Source of the DNA: Roseateles sp. SL47
GTDB taxonomy: Bacteria > Pseudomonadota > Gammaproteobacteria > Burkholderiales > Burkholderiaceae_C
Assembly: GCF_026625885.1 (NCBI RefSeq)
Contig: NZ_CP113068.1
Span: 3,348,001 to 3,412,000 of the forward strand
Reading direction: 5' to 3'
Length of the DNA: 64,000 nt
In this document: positions 3,071-59,643 of the stretch, one piece after another
Numbering within the stretch: the stretch's first letter is position 1
Layout: each line of letters opens with the position of its first letter
Translations under genes and position numbers: made by a program
The notes under the pieces: model-generated
What the model saw: the letters and a program-made list of their open reading frames with translations, nothing else
Database searches by the model: none
What the model was told of the DNA's origin: nothing

Positions 3071-4294
3071 ATGAACGTATTGATGAATGTGCATGACGCC
3101 CTCGTGAACTGGCTGGCTTATGGCCTGCTGGACGCGAGCTGGTGGCAGATCCTGGCTTACACGCTGGTCGTGACCCACATCACGATCGCCGCCGTCACGA
3201 TCTTTCTGCACCGTGCCCAGGCGCACCGCGCACTGGACCTGGGCCCCATCCCGTCGCACTTCTTCCGTTTCTGGCTCTGGATGACCACCGGCATGGTCAC
3301 GCGTGAGTGGGTGGCCATCCACCGCAAGCACCACGCCAAGTGCGAAACCGAAGAAGATCCGCACAGCCCCATCACCCGTGGCATCAAAACGGTGATGACC
3401 CGTGGTGCCGAGCTCTATCGCTCGGAAGCCAAGAACGAAGAAACCATCAAGAAGTTCAGCCACGGCGTGCCGGACGACTGGATGGAGCGCAACGTCTACA
3501 CCCGCCACTCGGTGCTGGGCGTGGCCTCGATGATGATCATCAACCTGGCGCTGTTCGGCATCATCGGCATGTCCATCTGGGCCATCCAGATGGCGTGGAT
3601 CCCGTTCTGGGCCGCAGGTGTCATCAACGGTGCGGGCCACTACTGGGGTTATCGCAACTTCGAGGCACAGGATGCCTCCACCAACGTCTCGCCCTGGGGC
3701 CTGATCATCGGTGGTGAAGAGCTGCACAACAACCACCACACCTACCCCACGTCGGCCAAGTTCTCGGTCAAGCCCTTCGAATTCGACATCGGCTGGGGTT
3801 ACATCCGTGCCATGGAAATGATCGGCTGGGCCAAGGTCCGCAAGACGGCCCCGCAGATGCGAACCGGTGAACTGAAGGCCGTGGCCGACAAGGACACCCT
3901 GGAAGCCATCATTGCCAACCGCTATGAAGTCATGGCGCGTTATGCCCGTGAACTGCGCGGCGCCTGCAAGGAAGAGCTGCGCAAGCTCAAGGCTGCCGGC
4001 GAACAGCACAGCGTGAAGTTCCATCAGTTCAAGCTGGCCACCCGGTGGCTGCACCGTGACGCCGAAAAGATCCCGACCGCCTATCAGGCGCAGATCGACG
4101 GCGCCCGCGCGGCCAGCCCGGTGCTGGACAAGCTGGTCACCATGCGTGAAGAGCTGCGTCAGCTATGGACGCGTACCAATGTCTCCGCCGAGCAGCTGGT
4201 GCACGACCTGCAAGCCTGGTGCCGCAAGGCGGAAGAAAGCGGCATCGCTGAACTGCGCGCTTTTGCACTGAGCCTGCGTACCGTGCGAGTGTGA
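3071..4294 (+). CDS. Membrane fatty acid desaturase (acyl-CoA/acyl-lipid delta-9 type)
   Basis: Integral-membrane di-iron desaturase of 407 residues that would introduce a cis double bond into membrane acyl chains. The three histidine boxes are complete: HRAQAH (47-52), HRKHH (84-88) and HNNHH (219-223). Hydrophobic segments lie around 25-47, 62-78 and 165-195. The C-terminal 150 residues are charged, probably cytoplasmic and longer than the minimal family core. The start ATG follows TAGGA at suitable spacing. The gene is monocistronic, with its own upstream region and a strong terminator. Cold or fluidity control would be typical of the family, but the sequence does not show it. Confidence 0.92.
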   Translation: MNVLMNVHDALVNWLAYGLLDASWWQILAYTLVVTHITIAAVTIFLHRAQAHRALDLGPIPSHFFRFWLWMTTGMVTREWVAIHRKHHAKCETEEDPHSPITRGIKTVMTRGAELYRSEAKNEETIKKFSHGVPDDWMERNVYTRHSVLGVASMMIINLALFGIIGMSIWAIQMAWIPFWAAGVINGAGHYWGYRNFEAQDASTNVSPWGLIIGGEELHNNHHTYPTSAKFSVKPFEFDIGWGYIRAMEMIGWAKVRKTAPQMRTGELKAVADKDTLEAIIANRYEVMARYARELRGACKEELRKLKAAGEQHSVKFHQFKLATRWLHRDAEKIPTAYQAQIDGARAASPVLDKLVTMREELRQLWTRTNVSAEQLVHDLQAWCRKAEESGIAELRAFALSLRTVRV

Positions 4295-4332
4295 ACATGC
4301 GGGTCTGAGCTTCCTTCAGCTCCCTCCCCCTG

Positions 4333-4365
4333 AAAGGGCACCTGAGACAGGTGCCCTTTTTTTTT
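4333..4365 (+). terminator. Rho-independent terminator after the desaturase gene
   Basis: A perfect 11-base-pair inverted repeat (AAAGGGCACCT at 4333-4343, AGGTGCCCTTT at 4349-4359) with a 5-base loop runs into an uninterrupted T tract to 4365. It lies 38 bases after the desaturase stop. Confidence 0.95.
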
Positions 4366-4539
4366 CTGAGCTCCTTGGCGTCCCTGTGAGGGCAGAGGGC
4401 TGCGGAAGTGAATGAGTGATTGACTTGCACAAGGCATGGTTTGCAGCAGTCACGCACCCACGTGCCGTGGATCGATTGCAGGGGTCGGCCAAAAATCCAT
4501 CGCTTCGACCCAGGACCCACCGGACTTTCGGTGGTGTCG

Positions 4540-6363: not shown

Positions 6364-9057
6364 ATGTATTCCATCCCTACCTCTCAGGCGTTCCCCGCCA
6401 TGTCTGGCGGTCTGGTGTCCGTCCCTGCAGGCGGTGGTGGAAACCGGAGCAGCGCCGCCCCTTGCAAGTCTCTGCACAGCCCTGCGGTTGATCTGAAGGG
6501 CCAGTACGCCCTTCCCCCCGCCGGCCGGGAAGACGCCGCCGTGAGCGGCCATCGCTTCGCCAGTGCCGACCCCAAGCTCCCGCCGCCGCAGCTCATGGCC
6601 CTGCCCGGGGCCTCCCATGATGCTGACGCATCCGCCCAGATGCTGCGGTTTCTGTCCTCGCTCCACCAGGAGGGGCGCACCGACCTGGCGGTGATCGACG
6701 GCAACGACGCGCCCCAGCAGGACCTGCTCTCCCGTCTCATCGCCTCCGGTGAGCCCACGCAATTCAACAGCGCCGGCACGCAGTGCGCCGCCTGGGTGGA
6801 GCAACAAGGGGGTGAACACTGGCTGTGCTTCGACCTTCAAAACAGCCATGGCTTGGATGCCACCCATCGTGTTTGTCTGCACAACATCGACCTGCAGGCG
6901 GCGCCCGACAAACTGATGGAGCAGGTGGCCGCCTTGGATCAATCAGCGCGCAAACACCAGGCTGAGGTCGCAGCGGACCCCATGCTTTCAGACACCCGGC
7001 ATCCAGCTTCCCTCACGCCCCCTGGCGGCGTGGCCCTGGCCTGCAGCGACGGGCGCAGCCTGTCCGGGTCCGCGCTGGTGCTTCTGGACGCACAGCAACG
7101 TTTCCGTCGCGTGATGGACGTTGTGAACGGACTGGAATCGGCCCCGCTGGAGCAAGCGCAACGGATGGTCGAAGCCGTCATGGATCCGTTGGTCATTCAG
7201 CATCAGAAGCAGTTGCTCCTGCTGCAAGGGCGCGACTGGTTGGGCGCGGAGTTCGGCTCCTTGCCTCAGCAGAAGGTGGATGCCGGGTTGAATGTGCTCA
7301 AGGACGCAGTGCGTGCCCAGCTGGACCCCTGGATGGTCACGGTTTCTTCCACGCAAGAGTTGCAGAAGGCGGATACCTCCCAGCCGCAGCTGCCGCCCCC
7401 GTTGGCGACCCCGTCTTTGTCTGCATCAACGATCCCCCCGACGACAGCATCAACACCCCCATCCACGTCATCCGTGGCCGCTCCTGCCTCACGACGCCCG
7501 GTCCCCCCGCCGCCGGTGCCTCAGCGTCTCGACCCTCAATCCTCCCCCGCTCGCGCGGCCCCAACACCGTCCTCCGCAGGTTCGGTGTCATCCGCACCAG
7601 CTCCGTCCAACAAGGCCAAGGACGAGGCCGAGCAGGCCAACGCCCAACCCTCCGCCAAAGCCAATGCCAATGCGGCCGCGAGTCCCCGCCCGGCACGTCC
7701 TGCACCGTCATCGGCACCAGCTCCAGCTCCAGCAGCTCCAGCTCCAGCAGCTCCAGCTCCAGCTGCAGCTCCAGCAGCGCCACCCCCAACCGCTCGTCGC
7801 CGACCACCGGAGCCACCGGTCGATCCAACCGCTCGTCGCCCACCACCGGAGCCACCGGTCGATCCAACCGCTCGTCGCCGACCACCGGAGCCACCGGTCG
7901 ATCCAACCGCTCGTCGCCCACCACCGGAGCCACCGGTCGATCGTGCAGCGCAGCGGCCGACTGCAGGCAGTCCACCGCCCACCTCGGCCCTGCGAGGGCC
8001 CGCATCGCCCCTTCTCCCTGCCAAGCGGCCGACCGTTCCTCCACCGCCCGTCCCGGTGAAGCCCAGGGATGCTGCCGCCCCACCGGACCCCGCCAGCATT
8101 CCTACCGTCCCCACGCTCGCCGAACTGACGGACGCCGGCAACCCCGCCAAGCCGGTGATGTCCACCACAGAGAACGATGTGGCTTTCAACGCACTGGCCG
8201 ACGCCATCCTGCGCGGCACTCCACTCGACATCGGACAGTTCGGCCGTTCGCTCACCAAGGCCCAGGAGGCGGAGCTTGTGGCCCTCGGCGAGCTGAGTGC
8301 ACTCGCTGACGCCCTGGAGGAGGGCTCACCGGCGCCTCCCCTCCAGGGGCCGAGCCCATCGCTGAAAGCCTCACTCGCCAACAGCCCGGTCGACACCGAC
8401 TCCCCTGCGGATCTCCCGCTGCCCACCGAGTTCCCGCCCCCTTACGTCGAAAAACCGCTGACGTTCGACCTCAACGTCAAGAGCGTACTGACCGACAGCG
8501 ATAAGAGGACGGTCAAGGAGTTCGGCAAGGGGCTGGAGGTGGCCATGGCGAATCCTGAGGTGCTCCATCTAGCCATGGACGACCTGGTGGCTGCCTTCCA
8601 AAAGCCCAAGGAGTCCCTCATGAGCCGGTTCGCCCGCTGGATGAGGCCCGAGGCGGCCCGCGCTCAAGCGCTGCAGCTTCAGGGCATGGTCATTGGCCGC
8701 CTGACCGCCGGAGTGCTGCGGCTCGCCAATGAATTCATTCCCTCCGATCCAGCGATGGCGTCGCAGAAGTACCGGACCGAACGCGCCCACTTTATCGAGC
8801 AGGAACTGGTCAGAATGCTGAAGGAGCGCCTTGCCCGGCTGTCACCCGAAGATCGCACCCAGGTGCTGGGCCAACTGGACGATCCGCGCAGCGGCCCTCT
8901 GGCCGCTTGGTTGAACAAGGACCTGCCGGCCGACCGGAAGGAGCTGCAACAGCACCCTGCGGATATTCCAGCGAAACTCGCGGACCACTCCATCTCCAGC
9001 CTGATCATGACCCACCAAATTGTGCGGGACGCCCTGAAACGGGTGCGCGCCGAGTAA
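6364..9057 (+). CDS. Large Pro-rich repeat protein, effector-like, unknown function
   Basis: An 897-residue protein I do not recognise. Residues 1-42 contain no Asp or Glu and are rich in Ser, Pro and Gly, and no Sec signal peptide is visible. This is the style of type III secretion N-termini. Residues about 90-345 look globular, with helical stretches around 250-330. Residues about 350-620 are an extended Pro/Ala/Ser linker containing four 13-residue repeats (475-526). Residues about 670-897 are a mainly helical C-terminal domain with several Arg/Lys-rich helices. No catalytic motif was seen. The gene stands alone between xerD and lrp, with no PIP box or clear Shine-Dalgarno near the ATG. 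Coding is supported by codon bias over the whole length; effector status is inference. Confidence 0.6.
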   Translation: MYSIPTSQAFPAMSGGLVSVPAGGGGNRSSAAPCKSLHSPAVDLKGQYALPPAGREDAAVSGHRFASADPKLPPPQLMALPGASHDADASAQMLRFLSSLHQEGRTDLAVIDGNDAPQQDLLSRLIASGEPTQFNSAGTQCAAWVEQQGGEHWLCFDLQNSHGLDATHRVCLHNIDLQAAPDKLMEQVAALDQSARKHQAEVAADPMLSDTRHPASLTPPGGVALACSDGRSLSGSALVLLDAQQRFRRVMDVVNGLESAPLEQAQRMVEAVMDPLVIQHQKQLLLLQGRDWLGAEFGSLPQQKVDAGLNVLKDAVRAQLDPWMVTVSSTQELQKADTSQPQLPPPLATPSLSASTIPPTTASTPPSTSSVAAPASRRPVPPPPVPQRLDPQSSPARAAPTPSSAGSVSSAPAPSNKAKDEAEQANAQPSAKANANAAASPRPARPAPSSAPAPAPAAPAPAAPAPAAAPAAPPPTARRRPPEPPVDPTARRPPPEPPVDPTARRRPPEPPVDPTARRPPPEPPVDRAAQRPTAGSPPPTSALRGPASPLLPAKRPTVPPPPVPVKPRDAAAPPDPASIPTVPTLAELTDAGNPAKPVMSTTENDVAFNALADAILRGTPLDIGQFGRSLTKAQEAELVALGELSALADALEEGSPAPPLQGPSPSLKASLANSPVDTDSPADLPLPTEFPPPYVEKPLTFDLNVKSVLTDSDKRTVKEFGKGLEVAMANPEVLHLAMDDLVAAFQKPKESLMSRFARWMRPEAARAQALQLQGMVIGRLTAGVLRLANEFIPSDPAMASQKYRTERAHFIEQELVRMLKERLARLSPEDRTQVLGQLDDPRSGPLAAWLNKDLPADRKELQQHPADIPAKLADHSISSLIMTHQIVRDALKRVRAE
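7786..7941 (+). repeat. Four tandem 39-bp in-frame repeats
   Basis: Copies start at 7786, 7825, 7864 and 7903. They encode PTARRRPPEPPVD and PTARRPPPEPPVD alternately, so the array is effectively two 78-base units that differ only at the codon for Arg or Pro. Identity between copies is nearly complete, which indicates recent duplication. A (GCTCCAGCA)-type Ala/Pro microsatellite precedes the array at about 7720-7780. Confidence 0.95.
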
Positions 9058-56919: not shown

Positions 56920-58827
56920 TCAGGACCGCGCCATGGCCGCCCCCTTGTTGACGGAAGTGCCCCGGAACACCGCCAAGCGCTGCGCATAGGGGTCCAGCGC
57001 ATCCTCCGGCTGCTTCAGTTCGAAGCCGGTGACAGTGGCAAAGCGCTCCGGGGAGACCAGGCCTTGGGTGGACAGTTCATCCACCAGTGCGAGCAGCGCT
57101 GCACGATGCAGGGTGATGAGATCCGTCGCCCGGTCGTGTTCTGCCTGCAGCATCGCCTCGATGGCGGCATTGCTGGGTTCGACGTCGGTGCACAGGTGGT
57201 CGTCACTGTTGGAGGTGACGTCGCATCGGCCGATGCGTGCGCCCATGCCTTGGTGACGGAGCATGCGCGCCGCCGTTTCCGTGGCCTTGCGCAGATCACT
57301 CTCAGCACCGCTGGAAGCAAGCTCTGGGCCAAACACCAGATGCTCCGCCGCCCGGCCCGCCAGGCTGGTGCAGATGGAATCCCGCAGATTGCGCTGTGAC
57401 CAGACCTTGCGGCCGGTGTAGAGGTTGTAGCCGCCCTCAAAGCTGGCCACATGGATCTTCATCTCCTGAGGCGCCCGGCCAAAGAGCAGCGCATGCACCA
57501 GCCCGTGCCCCGCCTCATGGACCGCCAGCAATGCGCGGAAGTCGGCATTGGTGCGTTGACGCAGACGATTGATCTCGAAGGGCTCGGAGATGACGTGTGA
57601 CTGCCCACGCCAATGGGCCAGTAGACGTCGACCATCTGCGGTCAGCCCAACGCCATCTCCAGCGTCCGCCCCTTGCTCCATGGCCCAGAGTGCCGCCTTG
57701 GCCAGGCCCGCCCCCAAAATGGCATGAATCGACGAAAACAGCGGCCGGGTCCCTTGCGCCGGGAATACCCCGTTGGCGTAGATCTGCTGATGCACGGTCC
57801 GGTCGATCGAGAAGCGCAGCCCGCAACGCGTCTGTGCATCATCAGCATACTGGGTGCAATGCCGCTCAATCAGCCGCTCATAGGCGCGACGGGGGAGCGA
57901 CGGGTAGATCACATGCTCATTGCCGAGCCGTGCCACCTGCTCCGGTTTGAAACGTTGGTTGAGCGCCTTCTTGATGTCGATGACGCTCAGTTGGCCGGTG
58001 AGGGCGTGGAAGATGTCGGCATCGCTGTCGCAGTCGTCCACACTGGTGGCCAGGTCGACAAAGGCTTCGTCCAGATTGCCGCAGACAAACACCAACAGCC
58101 GGCTGTAATCGGTTTCCCATCGATGCTGGCCACGCTCGCGAAACGCCCGGAGTCGCTGCTGGATCTCGTCGGGCGACCAGGCCATGATCTCCATCAGCGG
58201 GGCGTCCAGCTTCAGATTGCGTTGCAGTTCCCGGGCTTCCCAAGGGCGCAGCTTGAGCCGGAGTTTGACGTCCTCCGGCTCCTCGCGTTCCGCCTGAAAC
58301 GCCGACTCTGCCAGTGACGATTCGATGTCCGTCAGCAAGGACAGTGAAGGGGGCAGACGACCATCCGACAACAGCGCCCAGACGTCCGGGTAGCGCTCCA
58401 CCCGCACTTCATTGCGCTTGGTGTCGATGGTCCGAAAACGCTGGAATTCATCCAGCACCAGAATGCCAGGCTCCACCTCGCGCACGCCCGATTCGGCCAG
58501 GATGCCGGAGATGCTCTGCGCGCTGCGCCATCCGGCGCCGTTGGAGAAGCCGTCCATCTGGACTTCCACAAAGCGATCGTAAAAGCCCAGCAGTTGCGCC
58601 AGGCGTCGCACCAGCTGGGTCTTGCCGGTCCCCGTCAGACCCCAAAGGCAGACGATCACCGGTCGCGTGACGAGGGCTGGCAGCACATACCACGCCCGCA
58701 CCGAATCAATGACCCGGTCAATGATGGCGTCTATGCCAAACAGTTCAGTTTTCAGCTGAATGGCGACCTGTTGAAGGTGCTGATGTCGTTGCGTCAGGGT
58801 CTGACGCCATTCCTGGGAATTACTCAT
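56920..58827 (-). CDS. Soluble Clp-type AAA ATPase fused to FtsH-type M41 peptidase
   Basis: A 635-residue protein with two enzymatic halves. The N-terminal AAA+ part has Walker A GLTGTGKT (63-70), Walker B VLDEFQR (124-130), a sensor-1-like FVCGNLDEAF (about 247-256) and a sensor-2-like GTRPLFSSIHAIL (359-371), as in ClpX/ClpA-D2 proteins. The C-terminal part has HEAGH (437-441) and the third-ligand region LAGRAAEHLVFG-x9-SDLRKATE with Asp511, as in FtsH. No membrane segment is present and no typical FtsH AAA domain. This is thus a soluble chimera that could unfold and degrade selected proteins. It overlaps the upstream 80-residue gene by 8 bases. Confidence 0.82.
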   Translation of the reverse strand: MSNSQEWRQTLTQRHQHLQQVAIQLKTELFGIDAIIDRVIDSVRAWYVLPALVTRPVIVCLWGLTGTGKTQLVRRLAQLLGFYDRFVEVQMDGFSNGAGWRSAQSISGILAESGVREVEPGILVLDEFQRFRTIDTKRNEVRVERYPDVWALLSDGRLPPSLSLLTDIESSLAESAFQAEREEPEDVKLRLKLRPWEARELQRNLKLDAPLMEIMAWSPDEIQQRLRAFRERGQHRWETDYSRLLVFVCGNLDEAFVDLATSVDDCDSDADIFHALTGQLSVIDIKKALNQRFKPEQVARLGNEHVIYPSLPRRAYERLIERHCTQYADDAQTRCGLRFSIDRTVHQQIYANGVFPAQGTRPLFSSIHAILGAGLAKAALWAMEQGADAGDGVGLTADGRRLLAHWRGQSHVISEPFEINRLRQRTNADFRALLAVHEAGHGLVHALLFGRAPQEMKIHVASFEGGYNLYTGRKVWSQRNLRDSICTSLAGRAAEHLVFGPELASSGAESDLRKATETAARMLRHQGMGARIGRCDVTSNSDDHLCTDVEPSNAAIEAMLQAEHDRATDLITLHRAALLALVDELSTQGLVSPERFATVTGFELKQPEDALDPYAQRLAVFRGTSVNKGAAMARS

Positions 58828-59062
58828 TCCAATCCTCTCTTCGCAGCAGCGCCTGGAGCGCGACGCGATCTGCGCGGCGCTGGGCGCCGCGGCTTTGGAT
58901 GTGTTGACCGGCACCACGCATGCCACGCTGGCCCATGGCGCGCGCCACGGGGTCTCGTGTTGCCGGGCTCGCTTCGAGCACCAGGCTCATGGGTTGTTTC
59001 ATGCGGCGCAGGGCCTTGACCCGCCCCTCCTGGAGGGCGCGGGAGCGGAGTTGTGAACTCAT
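58820..59062 (-). CDS. 80-residue basic protein, partner of the AAA-M41 protease
   Basis: A small, strongly basic protein (MSSQLRSRALQEGRVKALRR, then MKQPMSLVLEASPATRDPVA and GQRGMRGAGQHIQSRGAQRR, ending LLRREDWNE). No family is recognised. It precedes the AAA-M41 gene with an 8-base overlap, so the two are translated together and probably act together, as adaptor, substrate or inhibitor (inference). A consensus TTGACA (complement of 59134-59139) lies 70 bases upstream. The gap to a -10-like TATGGA is 20 bases, which is long. ATG 59062 is used; an upstream in-frame start would run into non-coding sequence. Confidence 0.65.
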   Translation of the reverse strand: MSSQLRSRALQEGRVKALRRMKQPMSLVLEASPATRDPVARAMGQRGMRGAGQHIQSRGAQRRADRVALQALLRREDWNE

Positions 59063-59643
59063 TTGATGTCCGAAAAGCAATTGCCCCGGCTTCGTGGGCG
59101 CTCTGGCTCCATACCGTCTCCGCCGAACCGGCCTGTCAAGAGGCGTGCGGCAAGGCGCCACTCACTGCCGGCGCACAGGCGCAGAGCGTGAATGAGCCCT
59201 GCAGCCATGCGCCTTCAAGGGGCACTGCAGCAGGAGACGAGTGGGTCAGAGGTGCCGAGATCGGCGAGGCAATGCATGCCGCGCGGTCTGAGGCCGTATC
59301 TGGAACAGACACGGTTCAGCCGGGGCTGGAGAACCGTGTTCAGTCGATCGTCGTGATGATGAACAGGGAGGACATAGCGGGAATCTCCGTCATGCGGGCG
59401 CTGTCGTGGGCGCCTTCAGCAATGGGGGCGAATGATGCGTGCAGTGCGCCTGGCTTGCAAGCATGGCAATGAAGACGTTGCGCCGAGCCAACGGGCCCCG
59501 CTGTCCTCCCGGACAGGGGGCCTGTGCAGCGATTCACATCGACGGATCAGGCAATTGATGACGCCGATTGAGGACGTCGATTGATGGCGCCGATTGATGG
59601 CGCCGATTCATGGCGCCGACGAATCACGCCGCAGCGCGTGTGG
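59063..59643. other. Intergenic region between the AAA-M41 operon and fusA
   Basis: 581 bases without a supported gene. Content: the TTGACA promoter candidate at 59134-59139 (minus), a GC-rich hairpin GGCCCC/GGGGCC with TGTCC/GGACA (59494-59522) that lacks a T tract, and the 13-bp minisatellite (59554-59631) before the fusA stop. Weak open frames there lack a start signal and codon bias. Confidence 0.5.
59554..59631. repeat. Six tandem 13-bp repeats downstream of fusA
   Basis: Units start at 59554, 59567, 59580, 59593, 59606 and 59619. The consensus is ATTGATGGCGCCG with the central two copies identical. The unit is not a multiple of three and lies 12 bases beyond the fusA stop on the minus strand. 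Confidence 0.93.

Follow-up and report, generated by a model that had tools for sequence, protein, structure and literature searches.

The DNA analyzed here, referred to as the window, is a 64,000-nucleotide (nt) stretch of Roseateles sp. SL47 (RefSeq assembly GCF_026625885.1, contig NZ_CP113068.1, positions 3348001–3412000 of a 6.39-Mb genome in one contig). Near its end lies a reverse-strand operon in which a gene for a small basic protein (P0002) is followed by a gene for a predicted soluble AAA+ zinc protease (P0001), the two being preceded by a leader with a short open reading frame (ORF) of its own. The features are collected in Table 1; related loci and genomes are cited by our L and G numbers where they need to be told apart.

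Table 1. Features of the operon and its leader, in positions of the window
Feature	Position	Strand	Remarks
Protease P0001, 635 aa	56920..58827	(-)	Predicted Clp D2-type AAA+ at ~residues 9–420 and M41 zinc peptidase at ~426–607
Small basic protein P0002, 80 aa	58820..59062	(-)	Overlaps protease gene by 8 bases
Terminator-like hairpin remnant, 3′ arm AGCCGGGGC	59083..59091	(-)	5′ arm degenerate in the window copy
Leader helix H2, starting at near-invariant GCCCCGGCTG	59279..59326	(-)	From local fold of the window; mutually exclusive with H1
Leader helix H1, ACACGGTTC ... GAACCGTGT	59309..59339	(-)	Begins directly after the leader-ORF stop
Leader ORF, 11 codons, MSSLFIITTID, ending in TGA	59340..59375	(-)	
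Shine-Dalgarno-like GACGGAGAT of the leader ORF	59383..59391	(-)	
Promoter-like TTGCAA-17-CATCAT	59432..59460	(-)	By eye from the alignment; not listed by consensus scan of the window
Inverted repeat CGTTGG..CGCAACG	59476..59493	(-)	Just upstream of the promoter-like -35; listed as terminator-like by the scan

The ATG at position 58827 opens the 635-residue protease, in which Walker A (GLTGTGKT) lies at residue 63, Walker B (GILVLDEF) at 121, GTRP at 359, and HEAGH at 437–441, with Asp511 as the third ligand of the peptidase site. An earlier note on this locus, made without database searches, had given the gene coordinates, Walker B, GTRP, and the zinc site correctly, as well as the 80-residue basic gene with its 8-base overlap and the lack of a membrane segment; it did not mention the leader or the viral relatives. 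By hydropathy, the top 19-residue Kyte–Doolittle mean is 1.58 in P0001 and at most 1.66 across 35 family members, compared with 10 windows above 1.8 in the FtsH of the same genome. The peptidase half, which has the FtsH protease-domain fold, was matched by the Pfam M41 model PF01434 at 73.7 bits (cut-off 29.9); in a genome-wide scan with this model an ordinary FtsH scored 248 bits and P0001 76, and the genome thus holds an FtsH of its own. The ATPase half is of a different kind. A hidden Markov model (HMM) of the AAA half of the protease family, searched against proteins of the same genome, gave 31.8 bits for ClpB, 16.3 for Lon, 9.5 for HslU, and 1.6 for FtsH, and the NCBIfam FtsH model TIGR01241 reached 62.1 bits on P0001 against a cut-off of 600, covering residues 427–587 only. 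The ATPase half, which the earlier note had described as Clp/HslU in style and as open to doubt should it prove to be canonical FtsH AAA, is therefore not of FtsH type; the Clp part of the description holds, whereas HslU is the more distant relative and the D2 module of ClpB and ClpA the nearer one, a D2-type AAA+ domain with a D2-small domain being present and GTRP standing at the sensor-2 place. The expected AAA_2 assignment was not obtained for P0001, which Pfam places in PF00004 “AAA,” although AAA_2 was assigned in four of nine family members.

Some sources label P0001-type proteins “cell division protease FtsH,” NCBIfam and Pfam recognize the FtsH/M41 half, and a few copies elsewhere contain a stop or are split, all of which would fit a decayed or moonlighting FtsH paralog that is dead as a protease or as an ATPase. 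This explanation appears very improbable, as the HExxH, Asp511, Walker A and B, sensor, and arginine residues are invariant in the chromosomal and viral proteins, the ATPase half is not that of FtsH, and a separate FtsH is encoded in the genome. The domain make-up, intact catalytic motifs, and soluble nature of P0001 are thus supported at the level of sequence. An acidic DCDxDAD motif, possibly metal-binding, follows sensor 1 at residues 265–271 and is likewise invariant in the aligned chromosomal and viral relatives.

Like FtsH and the i-AAA and m-AAA proteases (MEROPS M41), P0001 is a single chain in which the AAA+ module is followed by an M41 peptidase with HExxH and a distal Asp; unlike FtsH, which a review describes as membrane-anchored (PMC9020784), it has no anchor by hydropathy, a Clp D2-type ATPase half, and a small partner gene with a leader. 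The HSP100 proteins ClpB, ClpA, and ClpC share with it the large and small AAA+ subdomains of the D2 module and the GTRP at sensor 2, but P0001 has a single AAA+ module, its own M41 peptidase instead of a separate ClpP, the DCDxDAD motif, and an extra stretch at ~residues 160–235, as read from the alignment. Lon and HslUV are also soluble ATP-dependent proteases, Lon being single-chain as well; their peptidases belong to another catalytic type than M41, and the sequence match of Lon and HslU to the P0001 family is weak.

The small protein P0002 has an isoelectric point of 11.9, with 17 lysine and arginine residues and 7 aspartate and glutamate residues. The ORF is a real gene: of 230 candidate proteins, 224 matched at E ≤ 10, and the 120 matches listed included 119 other proteins at 76–90% identity. 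A profile search with the P0002 family scored 8000 candidates and found 669 proteins at E ≤ 10. No credible known family was found for it in Pfam, NCBIfam, or PADLOC. By HMM, 71 of 79 loci have a P0002-type gene on the protease strand and upstream of the protease, a count that includes many close relatives rather than 79 independent cases, and the neighborhood that the earlier note had proposed is conserved; in four of the 71 (L072, L077, L079, and L102) the best match covers the C-terminal part only. The 8-base overlap is found in 22 of 23 Sphaerotilaceae-type loci, and elsewhere a gap of ~16–285 nt, measured from estimated protease starts, separates the genes (∼810 nt in L056). Among the eight loci with no P0002 match, one contig starts at the protease and one has 312 nt of upstream DNA, and six with readable upstream DNA have the protease and no small gene. 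In a 200-genome sample of the family, the small protein was detected at E ≤ 0.001 in 26 genomes. The match was strong in 19, of which 18 also had the protease; G465 has the protease only, G439 the small gene only, and G415 has them on separate contigs. An obligate toxin-antitoxin pair was ruled out by G465 and the six protease-only loci on one side and by G439 on the other.

The N-terminal part of P0002 (∼residues 1–30) was not seen in a wider family of ~50-residue proteins, with which its C-terminal half is shared, and this suggests a protein of two parts, the N-terminal one linked to the protease and the other basic and of more general use. At E ≤ 1e-6, the profile of the wider family matched 58 of the 200 genomes, in six cases solely through an operon-type or orphan small gene. 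As 49 of the 58 have no protease, the C-terminal domain would have a job of its own. The ~50-residue basic protein itself (MTSARKxKL..PKPRNPLVAAA..RKAGSHRKS; L155, L156, L157, L160, and L161) is widespread, stands by eye downstream of ogt-like and EamA-transporter-like genes in L155, L157, and L161, and gave no NCBIfam match for the one member searched.

These distributions bear on whether P0002 serves the protease or is served to it. In the second case, the small protein would be a substrate or labile regulator kept low by the protease, the two forming a feedback pair in which the C-terminal half is the active part and its release the signal. The overlapping or adjoining genes in the order small protein then protease, the many genomes with the wider family and no protease, and the small gene kept alone in G439 all agree with this explanation. 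The six protease-only loci, two of which (L094 and L096) have the leader directly before the protease, indicate in turn that the protease is useful without a small-protein substrate, and the substrate explanation is regarded as a real contender of clearly less than even probability. We prefer to see P0002 as a cognate adaptor.

The leader was aligned from the upstream regions of 66 loci, 24 of Sphaerotilaceae type including the window and 42 others, with six dropped. In 63 leaders the motif GCCCCGGC precedes the terminator-like arm; it is not present in L060, L064, and L080, the first two of which are still found by a covariance model of the leader. In a search limited to 6–14 codons, 8–18 nt, and ATG starts, with a Shine-Dalgarno sequence preferred, a short ORF ended just before the motif in 63 of 63, with a TGA stop in 62, a length of 9–11 codons in 62, 11–14 nt between stop and motif in 62, and a Shine-Dalgarno-like sequence in 61; the peptides vary. 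A U-rich terminator-like hairpin follows just before the start of the small gene, its 3′ arm starting 27–35 nt before that gene in most loci, and the Shine-Dalgarno sequence is located after it. The leaders of the window (59092–59280) and L039 are ~160 nt longer than usual and have lost the 5′ arm of the terminator while keeping the 3′ arm; a terminator scan listed the hairpin in L067 and not in L038 or the window. At the place of the promoter-like sequence, the consensus scan of L067 gave TTGCCA-17-CACAAT. The inverted repeat upstream of it, a possible operator, is common to many related loci.

In its own genome the leader model had a single match, the operon. In the family sample it matched 57 of 200 genomes, with 14 strong and 2 weak matches at the small gene, the other 41 being weak (E ~1e-5 to 1e-2) and taken as GC-rich background. 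Conservation of the leader anatomy is supported by the sequences. This anatomy resembles that of leader-peptide attenuators of the trp and antibiotic-resistance types in its short ORF, its pair of mutually exclusive predicted helices, and the terminator-like hairpin that precedes the first gene. It differs from them in that the peptide varies while the UGA and its distance are near-fixed, and neither the window stretch nor four related loci matched any Rfam family.

Two candidate helices follow the leader ORF. In H1, the bases immediately downstream of the stop pair with those that follow the motif (across 35 sequences, 90.6% of cells were paired, compared with 19–36% when slid), and H2 starts at the motif and reuses the 3′ strand of H1 (96.3% in 20 distinct Comamonadaceae-type sequences, compared with 13–47% when slid); because the two share a strand, they are mutually exclusive. 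H1 and the terminator-like hairpin together were 96.4% paired in 26 sequences, with three pairs changed on both sides compared with 0.9 in shuffles; in alignment A4, the terminator paired better one column off register (83.9% vs. 80.1%), and it was recounted on alignment A5. Cells with double changes exceeded every shuffle for H1 (26 vs. 8.7) and H2 (8 vs. 2.4). By stricter counts, pairs with a double change numbered two in H1 (equaled in 236 of 500 shuffles) and two in H2 (67 of 500), and the pair types of H1 and H2 were not above shuffles (500 and 490 of 500 as high), so that H1 and H2 taken by themselves show little covariation. In free folds the terminator formed in 57 of 63 leaders and H1 in 1 of 63, and with the end of the leader ORF blocked the terminator still formed in 55 of 63. 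As folding energies do not reproduce a switch, any switch would have to be kinetic; it is the anatomy of the leader that suggests control, in one direction or the other. A long-range pairing of GCCCCGGC with the 3′ arm of the terminator, proposed by RNAalifold, won 5 of 63 single folds, that of the window among them, and was demoted to a lesser alternative because it wins few folds and H2 accounts for the same invariant bases.

The simpler view, of an ordinary terminator and promoter with no translation-coupled regulation, draws on these folds, which favor the terminator in nearly every tested state, on the stricter covariation counts, and on the plain intrinsic shape of the terminator. It is nevertheless considered improbable: the geometry of the leader ORF is conserved in 62 of 63, H1 and H2 share a strand and pair far better in register than slid, the terminator stands just before the start of the small gene with the Shine-Dalgarno sequence following, and the leader also occurs directly before the protease where the small gene is absent and in phages, as described below. 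A leader whose control is coupled to translation is the reading that we prefer.

A scan of genome contigs, of which the best 80 of 81 matching loci were kept, placed the chromosomal protease mostly in Sphaerotilaceae-type and Comamonadaceae genera; one locus was from Cupriavidus and several were from metagenome-assembled genomes. In the family sample (GTDB-based) it was present in 19 of 200 genomes at E ≤ 1e-20. Farther out, the order sample matched in 3 of 300 genomes at E ≤ 1e-10, the own genome over full length and two over the M41 part only; the class sample in 2 of 229 at E ≤ 1e-40, namely G927 and the genome of the window; and the phylum sample in 382 of 398, of which, among the matches listed, two were full length, both from the family to which the genome of the window belongs, and the rest covered the peptidase part as FtsH would. 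The G927 relative (L230, 5115–7025; 34% identical) sits between hisF-like and hisE-like genes of an apparent his operon (hisA-hisF-[protease]-hisE), with tatABC-like genes following, all named by eye. The protease gene may sometimes decay, as some chromosomal copies hold an internal stop in the matched stretch (L016, L024, and L081) or are split in two (L023 and L025, genome G438). No cluster of a third conserved neighbor gene occurred in more than 31 of the 80 chromosomal loci, frames over the operon itself aside, and plasmid records gave no protease match at 1e-20.

Relatives of the protease were recovered from viral contigs as well. The chromosomal alignment found 10 loci in IMG/VR, nine spanning most of the protein at 35–41% identity and one partial, and a mixed alignment found 52, of which 51 cover the ATPase and peptidase parts and one is cut at a contig end; the 52 include near-duplicates, and not every contig was verified as viral. 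Thirty-one of them are on contigs >100 kb, the longest 548 kb, and the viral relatives are 23–50% identical to P0001. In GenBank phage records, P0001 as query matched three records over ~27% of its length, the M41 part, and two viral relatives as queries matched none at 1e-15. Proteins near the viral proteases (65 neighbors at 15 viral loci) matched 94 PHROG families. Neighbors of the viral proteases include T4-type clamp loader subunits in L169 (2.1e-61) and L171 (5.5e-9), a clamp loader in L182, a T4-type DNA polymerase in L174 (4e-169), and, within a few kb, rIIA in L197 and L199 and an exonuclease in L176, with a virion protein ~7 kb off in L204; one tested neighbor in L225 is a transposase, and two tested proteins, in L195 and L220, matched nothing. 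No gene but the protease recurred in more than 4 of 42 viral loci. As relatives of P0001 sit in very large phages, the protease family looks phage-linked, and its viral kinship is supported by sequence.

In a quick maximum-likelihood tree of 66 rows, midpoint-rooted and with Shimodaira–Hasegawa-like approximate likelihood ratio test (SH-aLRT) support only, 25 chromosomal and two IMG/VR rows (L185 and L186) formed one starred clade, nested in a starred 35-row clade whose other members are eight viral rows, five from contigs >100 kb. The chromosomal clade would thus descend from, or share ancestry with, phage copies, and transfer from phage to host is the likely reading rather than a proven one, given the support measure and the midpoint root. 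The phage contigs L185 and L186 are close relatives of each other (97% over the 3.5 kb that they share) and have genes for major head, portal, structural, and tail fiber proteins. Both carry the leader (27.5 and 34.2 bits), a frame with the P0002 C-terminal motif (E ~5e-5 and 3e-5), and the protease together, antisense to the structural (head, portal) genes. Elsewhere among the viral loci the leader gave a weak partial match in L208, and neither the HMM nor a separate search of the other viral contigs found a small protein outside L185 and L186. Beside the phage-borne cassette of L185 are small PIN-domain-like proteins (4056–4463 and 7550–7978), VapC-type by eye.

This setting would suit a phage-type accessory (“moron”) for defense, superinfection exclusion, or takeover, with which large phages target host proteins and which bacteria and other phages keep against competing phages. 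The 52 viral loci, 51 of them matching over both halves, the replication genes, rIIA, exonuclease, and virion protein within ~7 kb in some, the leader, small-protein relative, and protease of L185 and L186, and the patchy occurrence in chromosomes (19 of 200 genomes) accord with such a role. PADLOC, however, gave partial ATPase matches only, the best at a weak 1.3e-4, and none for P0002; the window copy stands, by reading, between a fusA-like gene and a TolB/amidohydrolase-like gene with no evident island; and the 52 loci are subject to the redundancy and verification limits given above. We know of no defense phenotype for the protease cassette, and the accessory role is considered possible but doubtful.

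The explanation we consider rather probable is that P0001 is an AAA+ protease, soluble and self-contained, that the small protein is its cognate partner (an adaptor or a substrate), and that the pair is under translation-coupled control and phage-linked by descent. In this scheme, a single Clp D2-type ATPase ring, presumably of six P0001 subunits, would unfold substrates and thread them into the M41 zinc-peptidase domains of the same chains, uniting Clp-style unfolding with FtsH-style cutting in the cytosol and without a membrane anchor. The small basic protein, made in step with the protease, would most likely act as its adaptor, the N-terminal part docking on the protease and the basic C-terminal part binding the target, perhaps RNA or ribosome-associated. 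Expression would be set by the leader, in which the short ORF ends where H1 begins: with a ribosome on the UGA, H1 could not form and H2 would remain, and which of the two forms would decide terminator read-through in relatives that keep the terminator-like hairpin. The enzyme family would be one carried by very large phages, from whose copies the chromosomal clade descends or with which it shares ancestry. We infer the ring, ATP-dependent proteolysis, the adaptor role, the mechanism and direction of the switch, and the phage-to-host transfer from these features.

Several results weigh against this explanation. The structure model of P0001 is middling (predicted template modeling score 0.49), with a predicted local distance difference test below 50 for residues 251–312, and that of P0002 is poor (65.5). 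Pairing is not absolute, given the six protease-only loci and the states of G465, G439, and G415. The window’s own terminator hairpin is broken, the terminator persists in folds with the leader ORF blocked, H1 is nearly absent from free folds, and the stricter covariation counts stay within shuffles. Finally, the tree is quick, has SH-aLRT support only, and is midpoint-rooted, with long branches and uneven composition.

A bolder version, to which we give little credence, is that a phage-born Clp-motor/M41 protease was captured with its small targeting protein and a leader that senses termination at UGA, so that disturbed translation, for example during attack by a rival phage, turns on a cytosolic protease. 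If true, bacterial chromosomes would have all or part of an immune or takeover cassette in common with very large phages and with a smaller tailed phage.

Among the papers listed by literature searches, mostly without subscription journals, none dealt with a Clp-M41 fusion, these viral proteases, or this leader, and the soluble Clp-M41 protease family seems undescribed so far. A soluble single-chain Clp-M41 machine would add another protease to those known; its presence on viral contigs of very large size, at times close to replication genes, raises the question of what a protease does there. The bacterial version brings with it an undescribed family of small proteins and a wider ~50-residue relative in many genomes, and the precise geometry of its leader makes the question of ribosome sensing testable by simple reporters.
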